From: Acidobacteriota bacterium
GTDB lineage: Bacteria > Acidobacteriota > Terriglobia > Terriglobales > Acidobacteriaceae
Reading direction: 5' to 3'
NCBI GenBank assembly: GCA_013289795.1
Contig: JABCZH010000013.1
Coordinates: 62,001-126,000, forward strand
Length of the DNA stretch: 64,000 bases
Under the pieces are notes generated by a model. It was not told where the DNA came from, made no database searches, and saw only the letters and a program-made list of their open reading frames with translations. Positions 7,412-47,511 of this stretch are shown here, in pieces. A program made the position numbers and the translations under genes. How positions within the stretch are numbered: position 1 is the stretch's first letter; the number at the start of each line of letters is the position of its first letter.

Positions 7412-7885
7412 CTACTTGGCCTGCGCCTTCTTCAGCAGTGCGATCTGTCCCGCGTGATAAAGCTCGTGTTGCACGATGCCGCTGAACATATAGAAATGGT
7501 CGTAATATTTCTCCGGCTTGCCGGGCACCGGATCGAGCAAACGCGAATCGGGAAAAGCCGCCACTGCTTTCACCAGCGCGTCGTGCTTTTGTTTGACTTG
7601 CTCCACCGTTTTTCGCCACGCCGTTTCGCTGCTGTCATTCACCGGCGGAAAATTCTCTTCGTCGCTGAGCTTCACGGCTGTGCCCCCGGTCCGGCGCAGC
7701 ACCGCGCCGTCCCAGGCCGCAATGTGTAGCAGCAATTCCCAGATGCTGTGAGCGCCCTTGATGGGATGCGCCGCCGCAGTCTTGGCATCGACGTTAGCGA
7801 GCAACTCGAGCACGGAATCGCCATGCCAAGCATCACCATCAAATGCCCTGCGGATCTGGTCAGCCAGTCGCGCGCTTTCAGACAT
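7412..7885 (-). CDS. DinB/YfiT-like four-helix metalloprotein
   Basis: 157 aa. The ATG at 7885 has AAAGGAG 7 nt upstream; a longer reading from 7930 lacks a ribosome site. It shows the DinB pattern of three metal-ligand histidines: HSIWELLLHIAAWD (first), the central HDALV helix, and HELYHAGQIALLKKA near the C-terminus. Members include thiol (mycothiol/bacillithiol) S-transferases and uncharacterised metal-dependent hydrolases, but the substrate cannot be read from the sequence. It sits between lpxI and the Gfo/Idh gene in the same operon-like run, with a 48-nt gap upstream and 3 nt downstream. Confidence 0.88.
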   Translation of the reverse strand: MSESARLADQIRRAFDGDAWHGDSVLELLANVDAKTAAAHPIKGAHSIWELLLHIAAWDGAVLRRTGGTAVKLSDEENFPPVNDSSETAWRKTVEQVKQKHDALVKAVAAFPDSRLLDPVPGKPEKYYDHFYMFSGIVQHELYHAGQIALLKKAQAK

Positions 7886-23059: not shown

Positions 23060-23119
23060 CTTAATAATATGCCGGATACACCGCTTGTCAAGCACGTTCA
23101 AACAGGATCGAGTGCCGAG

Positions 23120-23208
23120 AGGAGGGCAAGGGAGTTGAACCCTAGTGGCTGCAAGAGCCACTCGACCGTCTGGCAAACGGTGTCCAGTACCCACTGGCAA
23201 TACCCTCC
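23120..23208 (-). tRNA. Non-canonical 8/4 tRNA-like gene, anticodon GCC (Gly codons)
   Basis: 5' end at 23208. The acceptor stem has 8 bp (23201-23208 with 23121-23128, one G-U). The D arm is CCAGT-GGGT-ACTGG (5 bp with 4-nt loop, like tRNASec). The anticodon stem has 5 bp (ACCGT/ACGGT) with loop TTGCCAG, anticodon GCC at 23172-23174. A 7-bp variable arm with 5-nt loop lies at 23144-23162. The T stem has only 4 bp (AGGG/CCCT) with a normal TTCAACT loop. The discriminator is U (23120) and no CCA is encoded. A canonical tRNA has 7/5 stems, and Gly tRNA has no long variable arm. The 8/4 plan matches the allo-tRNAs described from Acidobacteria; a long variable arm suggests serylation, U73 suggests glycylation. 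Confidence 0.8.
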
Positions 23209-43384: not shown

Positions 43385-43612
43385 TCAGCCATGATGCACT
43401 GTGGTGTGGCATGCAGAACATAGCGTAATTAGGTTCTGCTCAGAGTCGTCGCCTGCCTGGCTGCGGAATTCCCGGTGATGGACCTCGAGGTTGTACATCG
43501 CGCCGCAGGTTTGGCATTTCCACCCATCCCGCCTTAGAACCTGGGTGCGGAGCTGTTCGTATGGCTGGGGATCAAGCCGCAGGCGAGGTTGCTTCGGTAA
43601 GCAACAATTCAC
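43385..43612 (-). CDS. HNH endonuclease
   Basis: 75 aa. Compact HNH domain: LRRDGWKCQTCG with the first CxxC zinc pair, then NLEVHHREFRSQAGDDS with the HH of the His-Asn-His motif, then NLITLCSACHTTVHHG with the second CxxC and the last His. The GTG start overlaps the TGA of the preceding gene by 4 nt (GTGA), so it is the last gene of the phage-like operon. Such small HNH enzymes are typical of phage packaging or homing-type regions. Confidence 0.9.
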   Translation of the reverse strand: MNCCLPKQPRLRLDPQPYEQLRTQVLRRDGWKCQTCGAMYNLEVHHREFRSQAGDDSEQNLITLCSACHTTVHHG

Positions 43613-44307
43613 GATGCCTTCTCGGCAAAGTGGTCCAGGAACGTCTTTCTTTCTTCGCCCGGCAAGAACTTGAAGAAACGTACGATCGACTGTAGGAGGA
43701 CCTGCGAACTGTCGTTTTCGAGGTTTGCACCCGCCAAGAAGTCCGCACAGATCATTTCCAGGCAGTAACCGCGGGATTTGTCAGTTCCCAGCATTAGAGC
43801 AGCAGTCTCAATCGCCTGTTCCACGACCGGGATTTGGCTCTTGTAGAGCTTGAAATAGATAATCTCCGATGGTTCGGTTTCCTTGCCGGTCAGCTCTTTC
43901 TCGACCGCCTGCTTAAACTGCTCCTTGGGCATCTGGCGGGCTTTGTGCAACCAGGTTGCACAATCGAAGTGCTCCCGGTCCCTCCGGGCTACCTTGGCCA
44001 GCTCCAGCCCCTTCGTCCATCCGACTTCCTTCAGATCCCGCCGCGCCTGCGGCGGTAGGTTCTCGTGGATGGACATCAGGTAGTACGCCTTCCTTCGCGA
44101 CTCCGGAAACCGTCTCTCCAGGAACTCATCGAAGGACTTCACGTTCTCCACCCGCCAGTACTGTCCTGCCCGCACTTCACATAGGTAACGCCCGAGTTCG
44201 ACGAACCGGGTGTCCCGTTCCGCTTCCTTCTGCTTCTCCCACGCCAGAATCTCGTCGATCTTCGTGAGCACGAACACCGCTCGTCGGCGATTGAGCTTGG
44301 GCAGCAT
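43609..44307 (-). CDS. Hypothetical protein in phage-like operon
   Basis: 232 aa from the ATG at 44307, 10 nt after the nuclease stop. No ribosome site is visible and a longer TTG/GTG start at 44346 is possible. Highly charged, helical: IDEILAWEKQKEAERDTRF, then VENVKSFDEFLERRFPESRRKAYYLMSIHENL, then FKLYKSQIPVVEQAIETAALMLG. The central part resembles phage proteins with a KfrA/ParB-like helical DNA-binding region, but I do not recognise a family. It overlaps the HNH gene by 4 nt. Confidence 0.75.
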   Translation of the reverse strand: MLPKLNRRRAVFVLTKIDEILAWEKQKEAERDTRFVELGRYLCEVRAGQYWRVENVKSFDEFLERRFPESRRKAYYLMSIHENLPPQARRDLKEVGWTKGLELAKVARRDREHFDCATWLHKARQMPKEQFKQAVEKELTGKETEPSEIIYFKLYKSQIPVVEQAIETAALMLGTDKSRGYCLEMICADFLAGANLENDSSQVLLQSIVRFFKFLPGEERKTFLDHFAEKAS

Positions 44308-44317
44308 GGGCGGATTG

Positions 44318-45121
44318 TTAGTAAGCAAGCTCGTCAAGCCAACCAAGGTTTTCTGCTCCCGGTCGTCGCACCAGACGGGTGTCGACCAGCTCCTGTTTCC
44401 CTAGGCAAAGCCCAATGTACGGGCACATGCTGCATGGGTTTTGCGGGAAACGGATTCCGCTGTGGGGCAAGAACTGGGCAGACTCGATCCGGCCAATCGT
44501 ATCTGCGACCAAATGGCCGAATTCGTGGCGCTGCTCGTCGGTGATCGTGGTGCGGAGGTACTGCACTTCAACCAGCCGCTTGCGCACGAAGACAATCTGG
44601 GCGACTTCGGAAATGCCAGTCATCCACGAGTAACAGACGAGTTGCGGATCGAGGGCCAACAGCCCATCGGGCTCTTCTGGATAGCGGGCCGAGGTGGTCT
44701 TCCATTCGATCAGACAGCGCGTTCCGTCCAGTTTCCCAATGGCGTCAACGTAAGCTACGAAGTCGTTCTTCCCGGCCAGGGGCCGCTCGAACTTGATCTG
44801 CAGGTTACGGCGAGATTGGCGAATGCGAATACGGTCGTCCTGGCAGAACCGGTCCAGAAGCTGGATGCCTTGCTGCAGCATGCGGTCCCAGGTGTCGCCT
44901 TTTGAGTAGTGCAACTGTTGATCCTTGTAGGCAGACCATTCACGGAATAAAACCCCTGCAGCGTCCTCGCGAAGGAAATAGGCACTGAGAGCTTGCTCGA
45001 ATGCCCGTCCGAAGAGCATTGCGGCGCGGGTGTCTTTTTCCTGCCAGCCGTCGAGATAGCGATGGCGGTAACGGCGAGGGCAGGTCAAATAGTTGCTCAT
45101 TTGGGTATAGCTGTAGGTCAT
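44318..45121 (-). CDS. PD-(D/E)XK nuclease, Cas4/RecB-like with iron-sulfur cysteines
   Basis: 267 aa from the ATG at 45121, which overlaps the upstream stop (ATGA). The Cas4/AddB-type layout is: an N-terminal Cys in YLTCPRRYRHRYLDG (Cys14), nuclease motifs FVAYVDAIGKLDG (Asp) and CLIEWKTTS (E-x-K), and a C-terminal C-x2-C-x5-C cluster (NPCSMCPYIGLCLG). The four cysteines should hold a 4Fe-4S cluster. No CRISPR array or cas1/cas2 is in the window, so this is a phage-type recombination exonuclease, not an adaptation protein. Its likely partner is the annealing protein two genes upstream. Confidence 0.88.
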   Translation of the reverse strand: MTYSYTQMSNYLTCPRRYRHRYLDGWQEKDTRAAMLFGRAFEQALSAYFLREDAAGVLFREWSAYKDQQLHYSKGDTWDRMLQQGIQLLDRFCQDDRIRIRQSRRNLQIKFERPLAGKNDFVAYVDAIGKLDGTRCLIEWKTTSARYPEEPDGLLALDPQLVCYSWMTGISEVAQIVFVRKRLVEVQYLRTTITDEQRHEFGHLVADTIGRIESAQFLPHSGIRFPQNPCSMCPYIGLCLGKQELVDTRLVRRPGAENLGWLDELAY

Positions 45122-45558
45122 CGCATCACCTCCGTGCTGGATGTACTTGACGGCGCAAGGTTCGACGACTCTTCCCATTGGCTAGCAGGTGCGAAGCCAT
45201 CGAGGTTGAGCAGGGAAGCGCCGTCCACGACGACGTGGCTGATCTTGGCCACTCCACGCAGGCCGACCAAGCTCTTCTCATCAATTTCATCTCGCCCAAG
45301 CAGGTCGGCGTCGTAGCCGAAATCGCGCAAGAACCAGTTGAGTTTCCACAGAGCTCTGGGTGTGCAGTAGAGTCGGCCGGTAATCGGCTGTCCGCTGAGT
45401 TCTTTGGGTTCCAGAATCGAGAAGCGAAGCAGGTAAAACGGCTTTCGGGCGTGCCATCGATGCTGGGCTCGATCGACCCTGACCAGGAACAGACCATCGC
45501 GAACGTGGTCCGCCACGGACTGGTCTGCGTCATGTAAGCCTTGGATGCGGCGTCTCAT
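45118..45558 (-). CDS. Hypothetical protein of the phage-like recombination operon
   Basis: 146 aa. ATGA overlaps with both neighbours (stop of 45555-46313 and start of the nuclease), so the three are translated as a coupled unit. The middle has beta segments (DGLFLVRVDRAQHRWHARKP, then FYLLRFSILEPKELSGQPITG) and a conserved-looking RALWKLNWFLRDFGYDADLL. The position and size recall the single-strand-binding-like DUF669 proteins that travel with phage nuclease/annealase pairs, but I cannot confirm it. Confidence 0.75.
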   Translation of the reverse strand: MRRRIQGLHDADQSVADHVRDGLFLVRVDRAQHRWHARKPFYLLRFSILEPKELSGQPITGRLYCTPRALWKLNWFLRDFGYDADLLGRDEIDEKSLVGLRGVAKISHVVVDGASLLNLDGFAPASQWEESSNLAPSSTSSTEVMR

Positions 45559-46313
45559 GCTGCACCTTCCTTCTGAATCGGGTAGCTGTTGAGTTGGCAG
45601 AGCAGGGCATTGCGGTCTTTCTCGGCCCAGTCGGCCAGATGGGCAACGAAGTTTTCGATCTGTTCGCGGGTGGCTTCGCGTAGCGTCTTAACGCCACAGA
45701 AGTCGGTCGCGTAGGCCTTGACCAACGTGGCATCGAGTTGATGCTGGCGAATCAATTGGCAAAGGCGATCGCGGACGGTGCGGCCACCCCCCTTACCATT
45801 GCCGTTCGCAGGCTGCGGCAGCTTTTTGGACTCTCGAGGCGAAGCGGGCTGGCCCGCGAAGGAACCGATCTCCTCGACCGAGCAGATGCCGATTCCGTAG
45901 GCCTTGCGCAACGCGCGATTGACTGCTCTTGTTTCGGCAACGCGCATTTCAGCGCCACGCACGAGAGGCGACACATTCGAAGGATCGGCATCGCCATAAC
46001 CTACGAAACCACGACAAGTTCCTGACCTATAAACGGTGGCCTTGAATGCCCATCGAGTTGTGGACGGATTACAAAATGCCGGGACAGGGCGCACTTGAAT
46101 ACCGGCGCAACCCTCTCGTCGTGAGAGGCGCAGCAAGCCCGAATGTGTGACATACCACCGACCGTCCAGAAGAAGTAGGTCTCCCAAGCTGACGGAGAGA
46201 GAATACTTATCGACCAAGTGGGTTAACGTGTTTGCACCTGGCTTTGACAGCGGACCCCAGAGTGAATGAGCCAGCCCGATCTCTGATCTTATGGTGCTCA
46301 GTCGTTTCCTCAC
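45555..46313 (-). CDS. Putative Rad52-like single-strand annealing/recombination protein
   Basis: 252 aa. The GTG at 46313 has GGAG 6 nt upstream. The core GFVGYGDADPSNVSPLVRGAEM followed by RVAETRAVNRALRKAYGIGICSVEE resembles phage Rad52/Sak-type and related annealases (a GWGDA...AETRAxxRALRxA pattern). A Gly/Pro/Lys linker separates it from a C-terminal helical domain (DRLCQLIRQHQLDATLVKAYAT), probably a DNA- or SSB-binding tail. It is the first gene of the operon controlled by the palindromic promoter. Family assignment is from memory of the pattern only. Confidence 0.55.
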   Translation of the reverse strand: MRKRLSTIRSEIGLAHSLWGPLSKPGANTLTHLVDKYSLSVSLGDLLLLDGRWYVTHSGLLRLSRREGCAGIQVRPVPAFCNPSTTRWAFKATVYRSGTCRGFVGYGDADPSNVSPLVRGAEMRVAETRAVNRALRKAYGIGICSVEEIGSFAGQPASPRESKKLPQPANGNGKGGGRTVRDRLCQLIRQHQLDATLVKAYATDFCGVKTLREATREQIENFVAHLADWAEKDRNALLCQLNSYPIQKEGAA

Positions 46314-46359
46314 GGCGTCTCCAATGGTTGAGAAATCGTTTCCAAAGAAACTTGTCTAT

Positions 46360-46407
46360 ACTAGAGCGCTCTAGTGTCTATTATACTAGAGCGCTCTAGT
46401 ATGTCAA
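46360..46407 (-). promoter_or_regulatory. Consensus sigma70 promoter with two palindromic operators
   Basis: Minus strand: TTGACA (46402-46407), 16-nt spacer, TATAAT (46380-46385), both perfect consensus. The 16-nt spacer and flanks form a perfect palindrome (ACTAGAGCGCTCTAGT at 46385-46400, extended to 20 bp). A second identical 16-mer lies at 46360-46375 over the start site, centres 25 bp apart. A dimeric repressor binding both sites would shut the recombination operon off tightly. Confidence 0.9.
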
Positions 46408-46495
46408 GATGTCCGTTCTCGTGCCAAGAGAATCAGGAGACCGTTGATGGGATTTGCAAATTACACCCGGCTCTGGCATAACCGTGGTCAGACTC

Positions 46496-46681
46496 ATGGC
46501 GAAGAAGAAGAATCCACACGCTGTCGCCCTCGGACGTCTTGGAGGTCTAAAGGGGGGTAAGGCTCGTACTGCAAAACTCACTGCCGAGGAACGGCAAGAA
46601 TTGGCCCGCAAAGCTGTGCTCGCCAGGTGGGCCAAAGCCAGGGCAAAAGCCCAGCAGAAGAACCAACCAGACAAAACCTGA
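46496..46681 (+). CDS. Small basic protein, divergent from the recombination operon
   Basis: 61 aa from the ATG at 46496. Very basic and Ala/Gly-rich: MAKKKNPHAVALGRLGGLKG, then LTAEERQELARKAVLARWAKAR. Proteins of this pattern are frequent in Acidobacteriota and are likely nucleic-acid binding. No ribosome site is strong. It lies between the operon promoter and the right direct repeat. Confidence 0.75.
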   Translation: MAKKKNPHAVALGRLGGLKGGKARTAKLTAEERQELARKAVLARWAKARAKAQQKNQPDKT

Positions 46682-46925: not shown

Positions 46926-47267
46926 TCATGGTCGGGCTTGGGGTCTTCTCTTTCTGGTGACTGGCCCGGGCCTCCCCCAAGCCGAATCTGGAATCATCAG
47001 CGAAGGGTTCAGTCGCTCCACCTCGTCAATGGTTTCAAAGGATGCAAGCTGCTTGCGGTAGATTTTGGCAAACTGCTCCAGCTCGACAAACGTGACATCC
47101 CGCGTACCCGATTCAATCCGAGTCATGAAGGTCTGGTCGCGACCGAGTTGACGGGCGACCTGAATCTGCGTGAAGCCTGCTGCGACTCGGGCTTGCCGGA
47201 GCAGGTTCCGCAAAGTCGCGCTCTGTGCTTTGGATTTTTGGTCTGCTCGTCGCCTTGCCCACCGCAT
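46926..47267 (-). CDS. XRE-family helix-turn-helix regulator
   Basis: 113 aa. The HTH lies at about residues 17-70 (TLRNLLRQARVAAGFTQIQVA, then LGRDQTFMTRIESGTRDVTFVELEQFAKIY), a standard Cro/CI-type fold. N- and C-terminal tails are Arg-rich (MRWARRRADQ and TRKRRPQARP). It could be the repressor acting on the palindromic promoter at 46360-46407, but the same palindrome is not present before its own gene, so the link is only positional. Confidence 0.82.
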   Translation of the reverse strand: MRWARRRADQKSKAQSATLRNLLRQARVAAGFTQIQVARQLGRDQTFMTRIESGTRDVTFVELEQFAKIYRKQLASFETIDEVERLNPSLMIPDSAWGRPGPVTRKRRPQARP

Positions 47268-47511
47268 TCACTACCCCACCGCTGCTTTTCCTGATTGCAG
47301 GATTTCGCCCTATTCTGACATGCATTTTCTGCATATTGCAGTACCGATTGGCGCAACAATTACAAACGCCATGGAATCAATAACTTGCGGAGTCACATAA
47401 ATCAAATAAGCCCATCCAGTTCCCATATATAGAAGGCATCAGGGAGAGACCGGCCTCGCCAGACTATCTGGACGTTGCCAAGTTTGAATCCTCCCGAAAG
47501 GAGAAGGCTGG

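Follow-up and report, generated by a model that had tools for sequence, protein, structure and literature searches.

Twin palindromes on a consensus promoter as candidate operators of a 61-residue protein encoded divergently from a recombination operon

The question raised by this locus is which protein, if any, reads two identical palindromes that lie on a perfect consensus promoter within the 64,000-nucleotide stretch of acidobacterial DNA analysed here (the window). On the minus strand, the -35 hexamer TTGACA (46402 to 46407) and the -10 hexamer TATAAT (46380 to 46385) both match the consensus perfectly and are separated by a 16-bp spacer. This was the only 12/12 match within the 64 kb, the runner-up scoring 11, which agrees with the claim of an earlier sequence-only reading that it is the strongest promoter of the window. 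The same reading had placed identical palindromes in the spacer and at the start site, and both proved exact: the 16-bp palindrome ACTAGAGCGCTCTAGT occurs at 46360 to 46375 and at 46385 to 46400, 25 bp apart. No further copy with up to three mismatches was found elsewhere in the window (0.12 expected), and at least two matches anywhere were obtained in 2 of 100 shuffles. A lone perfect 16-bp palindrome is commonplace (2 per 64 kb observed versus 0.98 expected); what is unusual is the presence of twin identical copies, at a spacing of 25 bp, on a perfect promoter.

The true operator unit is 20 bp rather than 16 bp. Putative operator 1, ATACTAGAGCGCTCTAGTAT (46383 to 46402), is a perfect palindrome that occupies the whole promoter spacer and reaches into both hexamers, taking in the final base of the -35 at one end and the first three bases of the -10 at the other, a placement that matches that in related promoters of the group discussed below. 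Putative operator 2, ATACTAGAGCGCTCTAGTGT (46358 to 46377), carries one outer mismatch and covers the predicted transcription start, which we infer to lie at about 46373. The 14-bp core had no second occurrence in the whole genome at up to two mismatches, the 16-mer was not found in 149 other genomes of the family searched, and it had no exact match in viral contigs.

Reading away from the promoter is a conserved block of five genes, all on the minus strand. Gene A (45555 to 46313, GTG start, 252 aa) is followed by gene B (45118 to 45558, 146 aa, without family match), gene C (44318 to 45178), encoding a PD-(D/E)XK exonuclease (Pfam PF12705, PDDEXK_1, 1.4e-17; phrog_1218), gene D (43609 to 44346, 245 aa; phrog_17202, with no function assigned there) and gene E (43385 to 43612), encoding a small HNH endonuclease according to Pfam. 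The structure model of A (pLDDT 80.6) gave its best structural alignment with the N-terminal domain of lambda Red-beta (7ujl, Z 7.8, 128 aligned residues, 4.3 A); RAD52 scored Z 6 to 7, with dsRBDs nearly as high, and the C-terminal part, aligned separately with the Red-beta C-terminal domain, gave Z values of 5.9 and 5.5. Because all Z values were below 8 and Foldseek alone gave no significant match with this model, the assignment of A as a Red-beta/RAD52-like single-strand annealing protein is only suggestive. With the exonuclease and HNH matches and this fold likeness, the proposal that a strong promoter overlain by an operator precedes a recombination operon was supported. The lambda Red system (Red-beta, Exo, Gam) is comparable in that A aligns with the Red-beta domains and C is a PD-(D/E)XK exonuclease; it differs from the operon of the window, which adds genes B and D and the HNH endonuclease.

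The A-E block was found repeatedly as a unit, and DNA similarity between the window and related loci stops at the stop codon of gene E. In most full-length loci gene C stands beside A, as the paired exonuclease expected in the operon of an annealing protein. Relatives of A were detected in 31 of 298 order-level and 31 of 399 class-level genomes, two sets that overlap, in 3 viral contigs and, among plasmid and named-phage records, as one weak relative. The flanks of the loci had no element in common; two small families were shared, one among 8 loci and the other among 5. Two viral contigs (L039 and L040) carry the block next to terminase large subunit genes, neighbours that point to a phage or satellite origin.

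Divergent from the operon, on the plus strand, lies a gene for a 61-aa protein (46496 to 46681) with no obvious promoter of its own in the window. We give a probability of about 0.85 to the reading that the twin palindromes are the operators of this mini-protein, that it represses the recombination operon, and that its specificity follows a code at residues 41 and 36 together with a rule on a short insert. It belongs to a small, strongly basic type of about 60 aa with the signature GGxKGGKAR...ARW. Searches of Pfam, NCBIfam and PDB sequences yielded no family or solved relative, and Foldseek found no match for its model. In PHROGs, phrog_2384 was matched by all 13 members of the mini-protein alignment (best 6.4e-8), perhaps because this longer profile opens with the same domain; what is proposed here goes beyond that entry, for which PHROGs records no function, operator or specificity. 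The mini-protein is present in 137 of the 399 genomes of the class and in many viral contigs. No relative appeared in plasmid and named-phage records, a result for which the low-complexity filter may be responsible. The KGG repeat proteins (PF10685: YciG, YmdF and GsiB; see PMC9262955) were considered as kin and rejected, as eight mini-protein sequences gave no Pfam KGG match at E≤10, a search in which the HMMER filters may conceal weak matches. The family was absent from the literature searched, which covered few subscription journals, and is apparently undescribed so far.

The AlphaFold model, of moderate confidence (pLDDT 77, pTM 0.45), is a two-helix hairpin formed by residues 7 to 26 and 30 to 55. 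The second helix contains residues 36 and 41, and the first contains the 4-residue insert that distinguishes longer members. No helix-turn-helix match (HTH_3 or HTH_31) was found in Pfam. Ribbon-helix-helix (RHH) repressors such as Arc, CopG and MetJ are very small and control genes of mobile elements, as is proposed for the mini-protein, and RHH-type genes serve 44 of 82 related operons; the mini-protein differs from them in having no Pfam RHH match and, in its model, two helices and no strand.

Three rules were first noticed by eye on 14 loci. Residue 41 was Val or Ile with ATAC half-sites and Ala with ATGC; residue 36 was Ile or Leu when base 5 was T and Ser when it was G; and proteins with the 4-residue insert had 20-bp sites, those without it 18-bp sites. 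Val/Ile and Ala each occur in both long and short types, so that the residue 41 rule is not a mere subfamily label. Palindromes were scored blind to bases 3 and 5 in 150 bp upstream, with the cut-off set at the 99% level of shuffles that preserve dinucleotides; a site was found for 28 of the 143 distinct mini-proteins, compared with 1.4 expected. Within this set, all 19 Val/Ile proteins went with A and 7 of the 8 Ala proteins with G; L129 among these seven and the single miss, L049, resemble chance sites, and the remaining row (L266) bears Arg41 and fits the family poorly. Of the common long type, 9 of 12 proteins had a full site of 20 bp, and of the short type 10 of 11 had one of 18 bp; in types with another N-terminus the site was 21 bp (2/2) or 19 bp (3/3).

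An anchored half-site, CCGCT(1-2)xGyAT, was present upstream of 30 of 129 mini-proteins (at least 40 bits and an RW motif, identical cores collapsed to one row), with a null of 0.8% in plain shuffles. Here base 3 followed residue 41 without exception (Val with A, 18/18; Ala with G, 11/11; Gly with G, 1/1), base 5 largely followed residue 36 (Ile with T, 7/9; Ser with G, 14/16), and the half-site was 12 nt in all 20 long proteins and 11 nt in all 10 short ones. Under a broad pattern, applied to the same kind of rows with the hold-out described below added, 60 of 148 mini-proteins had a site and 88 had none; with the null at 6.7%, chance could account for some 10 of these 60. Val/Ile was paired with A in 31 of 32 rows and Ala with G in 22 of 25 (Fisher 1.3e-12, rows treated as independent), the exceptions being L048 (Val, T), L249 and L330 (Ala, A) and L067 (Ala, T). 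Insert and half-site length agreed in 57 of 60 (exceptions L067, L227 and L334), the insert lengthening each half-site by 1 bp. Residue 36 was weaker under this pattern (Ile with T, 13/22; Ser with G, 21/25).

For the hold-out, the rules were fixed in writing before two further viral scans yielded 18 new proteins (at least 35 bits, previously unseen cores), six of them with a strict half-site. In this small set the predictions were correct for residue 41 in 5 of 5, for residue 36 in 5 of 5 and for length in 6 of 6; one Ser41 and one Arg36 protein lay outside the predictions. Under the looser pattern, two rows of the hold-out contradict a rule, L330 through its base 3 and L334 through its length. 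The proteins are short and related: the best tree placed 14 changes at residue 41, and just one independent contrast fell on supported branches, too few for a sign test. With an earlier strict pattern, 26 of 141 upstream regions had a site versus 16 of 141 when reversed, which weakens that pattern; reversal is a poor control because palindromes remain palindromic when reversed, and shuffles were used instead. Taken at the level of sequence, the comparisons show co-variation of mini-protein residues and length with the putative sites.

The same type of site, obeying the same rules, was found where a mini-protein gene diverges from transposase-like genes (L199, L204, L207, L209, L214, L288 and L295) or from a serine resolvase (L260); the Pfam run covered the resolvase and one of the transposase-like proteins, the latter a weak match. 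The rules thus hold where linkage to the recombination operon is lacking. In several members with an N-terminal extension, CCGCTCAAGCAT lies about 20 bp ahead of the gene's own start, as Ile36 and Ala41 (Gly41 in one) predict, a position that suggests autoregulation.

In the mechanism that we propose, the mini-protein would bind the palindrome as a symmetric dimer, and a dimer at operator 1 would directly block RNA polymerase on the consensus promoter, operator 2 supplying a second block. Such repression would keep the Red-beta/exonuclease-type operon silent. Each half-site would run from 5'-ATRCK inwards to the GC-rich middle of the palindrome. Base 3 would be read by residue 41, Val or Ile selecting A and Ala selecting G; Val/Ile against the thymine methyl of the A:T pair would be a natural reading of this part of the code. 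Residue 36 would contribute at base 5, with Ile, Leu or Val for T and Ser or Ala for G. An insert of 4 residues, placed between the helices or inside them, would add 1 bp per half-site. The centres of the twin sites are 16, 18, 25, 27, 32 or 35 bp apart depending on the locus, a variation that argues against fixed contacts between two dimers. We lean, with clearly less assurance, towards a broader view in which these proteins represent a new minimal DNA-binding fold, a two-helix hairpin of about 45 residues that is widespread in mobile elements, with the residue 41/36 code and a helix-length ruler by which one extra helical turn (4 residues) would shift each half-site by exactly 1 bp.

The gene divergent from related operons was classified with small profiles built for this analysis at 82 distinct loci, each having 300 bp or more of upstream sequence and a match that begins within the first 70 residues. 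It was of RHH type at 44 loci, XRE type at 13 and mini-protein type at 13 (one of which, L104, resembles a fragment); four loci had two types and eight had none. Most loci had, by eye, a promoter upstream of A with repeated or palindromic sites, which varied from locus to locus. The genome of the window itself has three A copies, accompanied by two different mini-proteins and one RHH gene and by three different operators, that of the second copy being of ATGCG type. By these assignments, regulator exchange at related operons is shown among the loci compared, and the pairing of other regulators (RHH or XRE) with other operators would leave each copy separately controlled.

The sequence-only reading had looked for the regulator elsewhere, among TetR- and XRE-type proteins. 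No TetR regulator was identified, and the palindrome core, for which that reading proposed a genome search beside such genes, was found in the genome at this locus only. An XRE-type gene (46926 to 47267, minus strand, Pfam HTH_31) does lie nearby, and that it, or another host regulator of TetR or LacI type, binds the palindromes has some support: at 13 of the 82 operons the gene diverging directly from the promoter is of XRE type, and two Gulosibacter genomes have two copies of the 14-bp core next to a LacI-type gene (type judged from sequence alone). We hold this to be improbable; the XRE protein of the window was set aside because the other operon loci compared had no relative, the core is limited to this locus within its genome, and the sequence and length of the sites track the mini-protein rather than XRE genes, even far from such operons. 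Induction by DNA damage, also proposed, was not supported; a 61-aa protein is too small to hold a self-cleavage domain. Alternatively, the mini-protein might bind these sites as an activator or an architectural protein; it is small and very basic, and activators too can bind close to promoters. This is likewise improbable, as the site covers the -35 and -10 of a 12/12 consensus promoter, for which an activator should be unnecessary. That the palindromes serve as recombination or cleavage sites of the operon enzymes, which include an HNH nuclease and an annealing-type protein, or form transcript hairpins, is scarcely credible, given that their sequence varies with the regulator between operons while the enzymes stay similar and that similar sites also adjoin other genes.

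The locus has the layout of an immunity switch, in which putative operators overlap the controlled promoter and the gene of the proposed regulator is adjacent. Phage immunity regions (heteroimmunity in lambdoid and similar phages) likewise have a divergent repressor, a strong promoter overlain by operators, recombination genes downstream and specificities that differ among related elements, and the proposed separate control of each operon copy would be much like their differing immunity types. They differ in that here the repressor class itself appears to swap (RHH, XRE or mini-protein), the last without a known domain. The loci also show re-wiring of related recombination operons by three unrelated regulator classes. 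A testable function is offered for proteins to which none is assigned in the curated libraries searched. If true, the mini-protein code would be a clean case for the evolution of DNA specificity and would make the specificity of unstudied members predictable from sequence, and the two-residue code and length rule would make these proteins useful as very small orthogonal repressors.

Several further observations were made. In Gulosibacter, the twin CTAGAGCGCTCTAG adjoining the LacI-type gene lies at 2295 to 2333 of L001 and at 7774 to 7808 of L002; these two operators were the only matches of a twin-core search of genome contigs, and they were rejected as relatives, the operator shape being judged coincidental and the core apparently reached by another regulator class. 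In the window, TGCAT/ATGCA words are repeated upstream of the XRE gene (47260 to 47360), with similar words in L023, also with an XRE gene, and are perhaps that gene's own operator. Upstream of many N-terminally extended mini-protein genes (L049 to L071, L115 to L149), in genomes and viral contigs alike, a GGTAGTGGGTCAGTTTGAA-like motif is conserved, which may be the end of a transposon or serve in regulation. Compared with the copy on contig 4 (L074), the window segment from 43385 to 46681 is 88 to 96% identical in B to D, 73% in A and 72% in the mini-protein, and the 5' end of the operon may be read as mosaic or diversifying. Two loci, L090 (3176 to 3571 and 3993 to 4673) and L098 (4045 to 4785 and 5095 to 5490), have two A genes in tandem, a truncated one with a mini-protein cassette and a full one with an RHH cassette, as stacked control modules. 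Finally, a tRNA gene on the minus strand of the window (23119 to 23208) was called tRNA-Gly(gcc) by ARAGORN and tRNA-Sec by Rfam (48.2 bits, barely above threshold).
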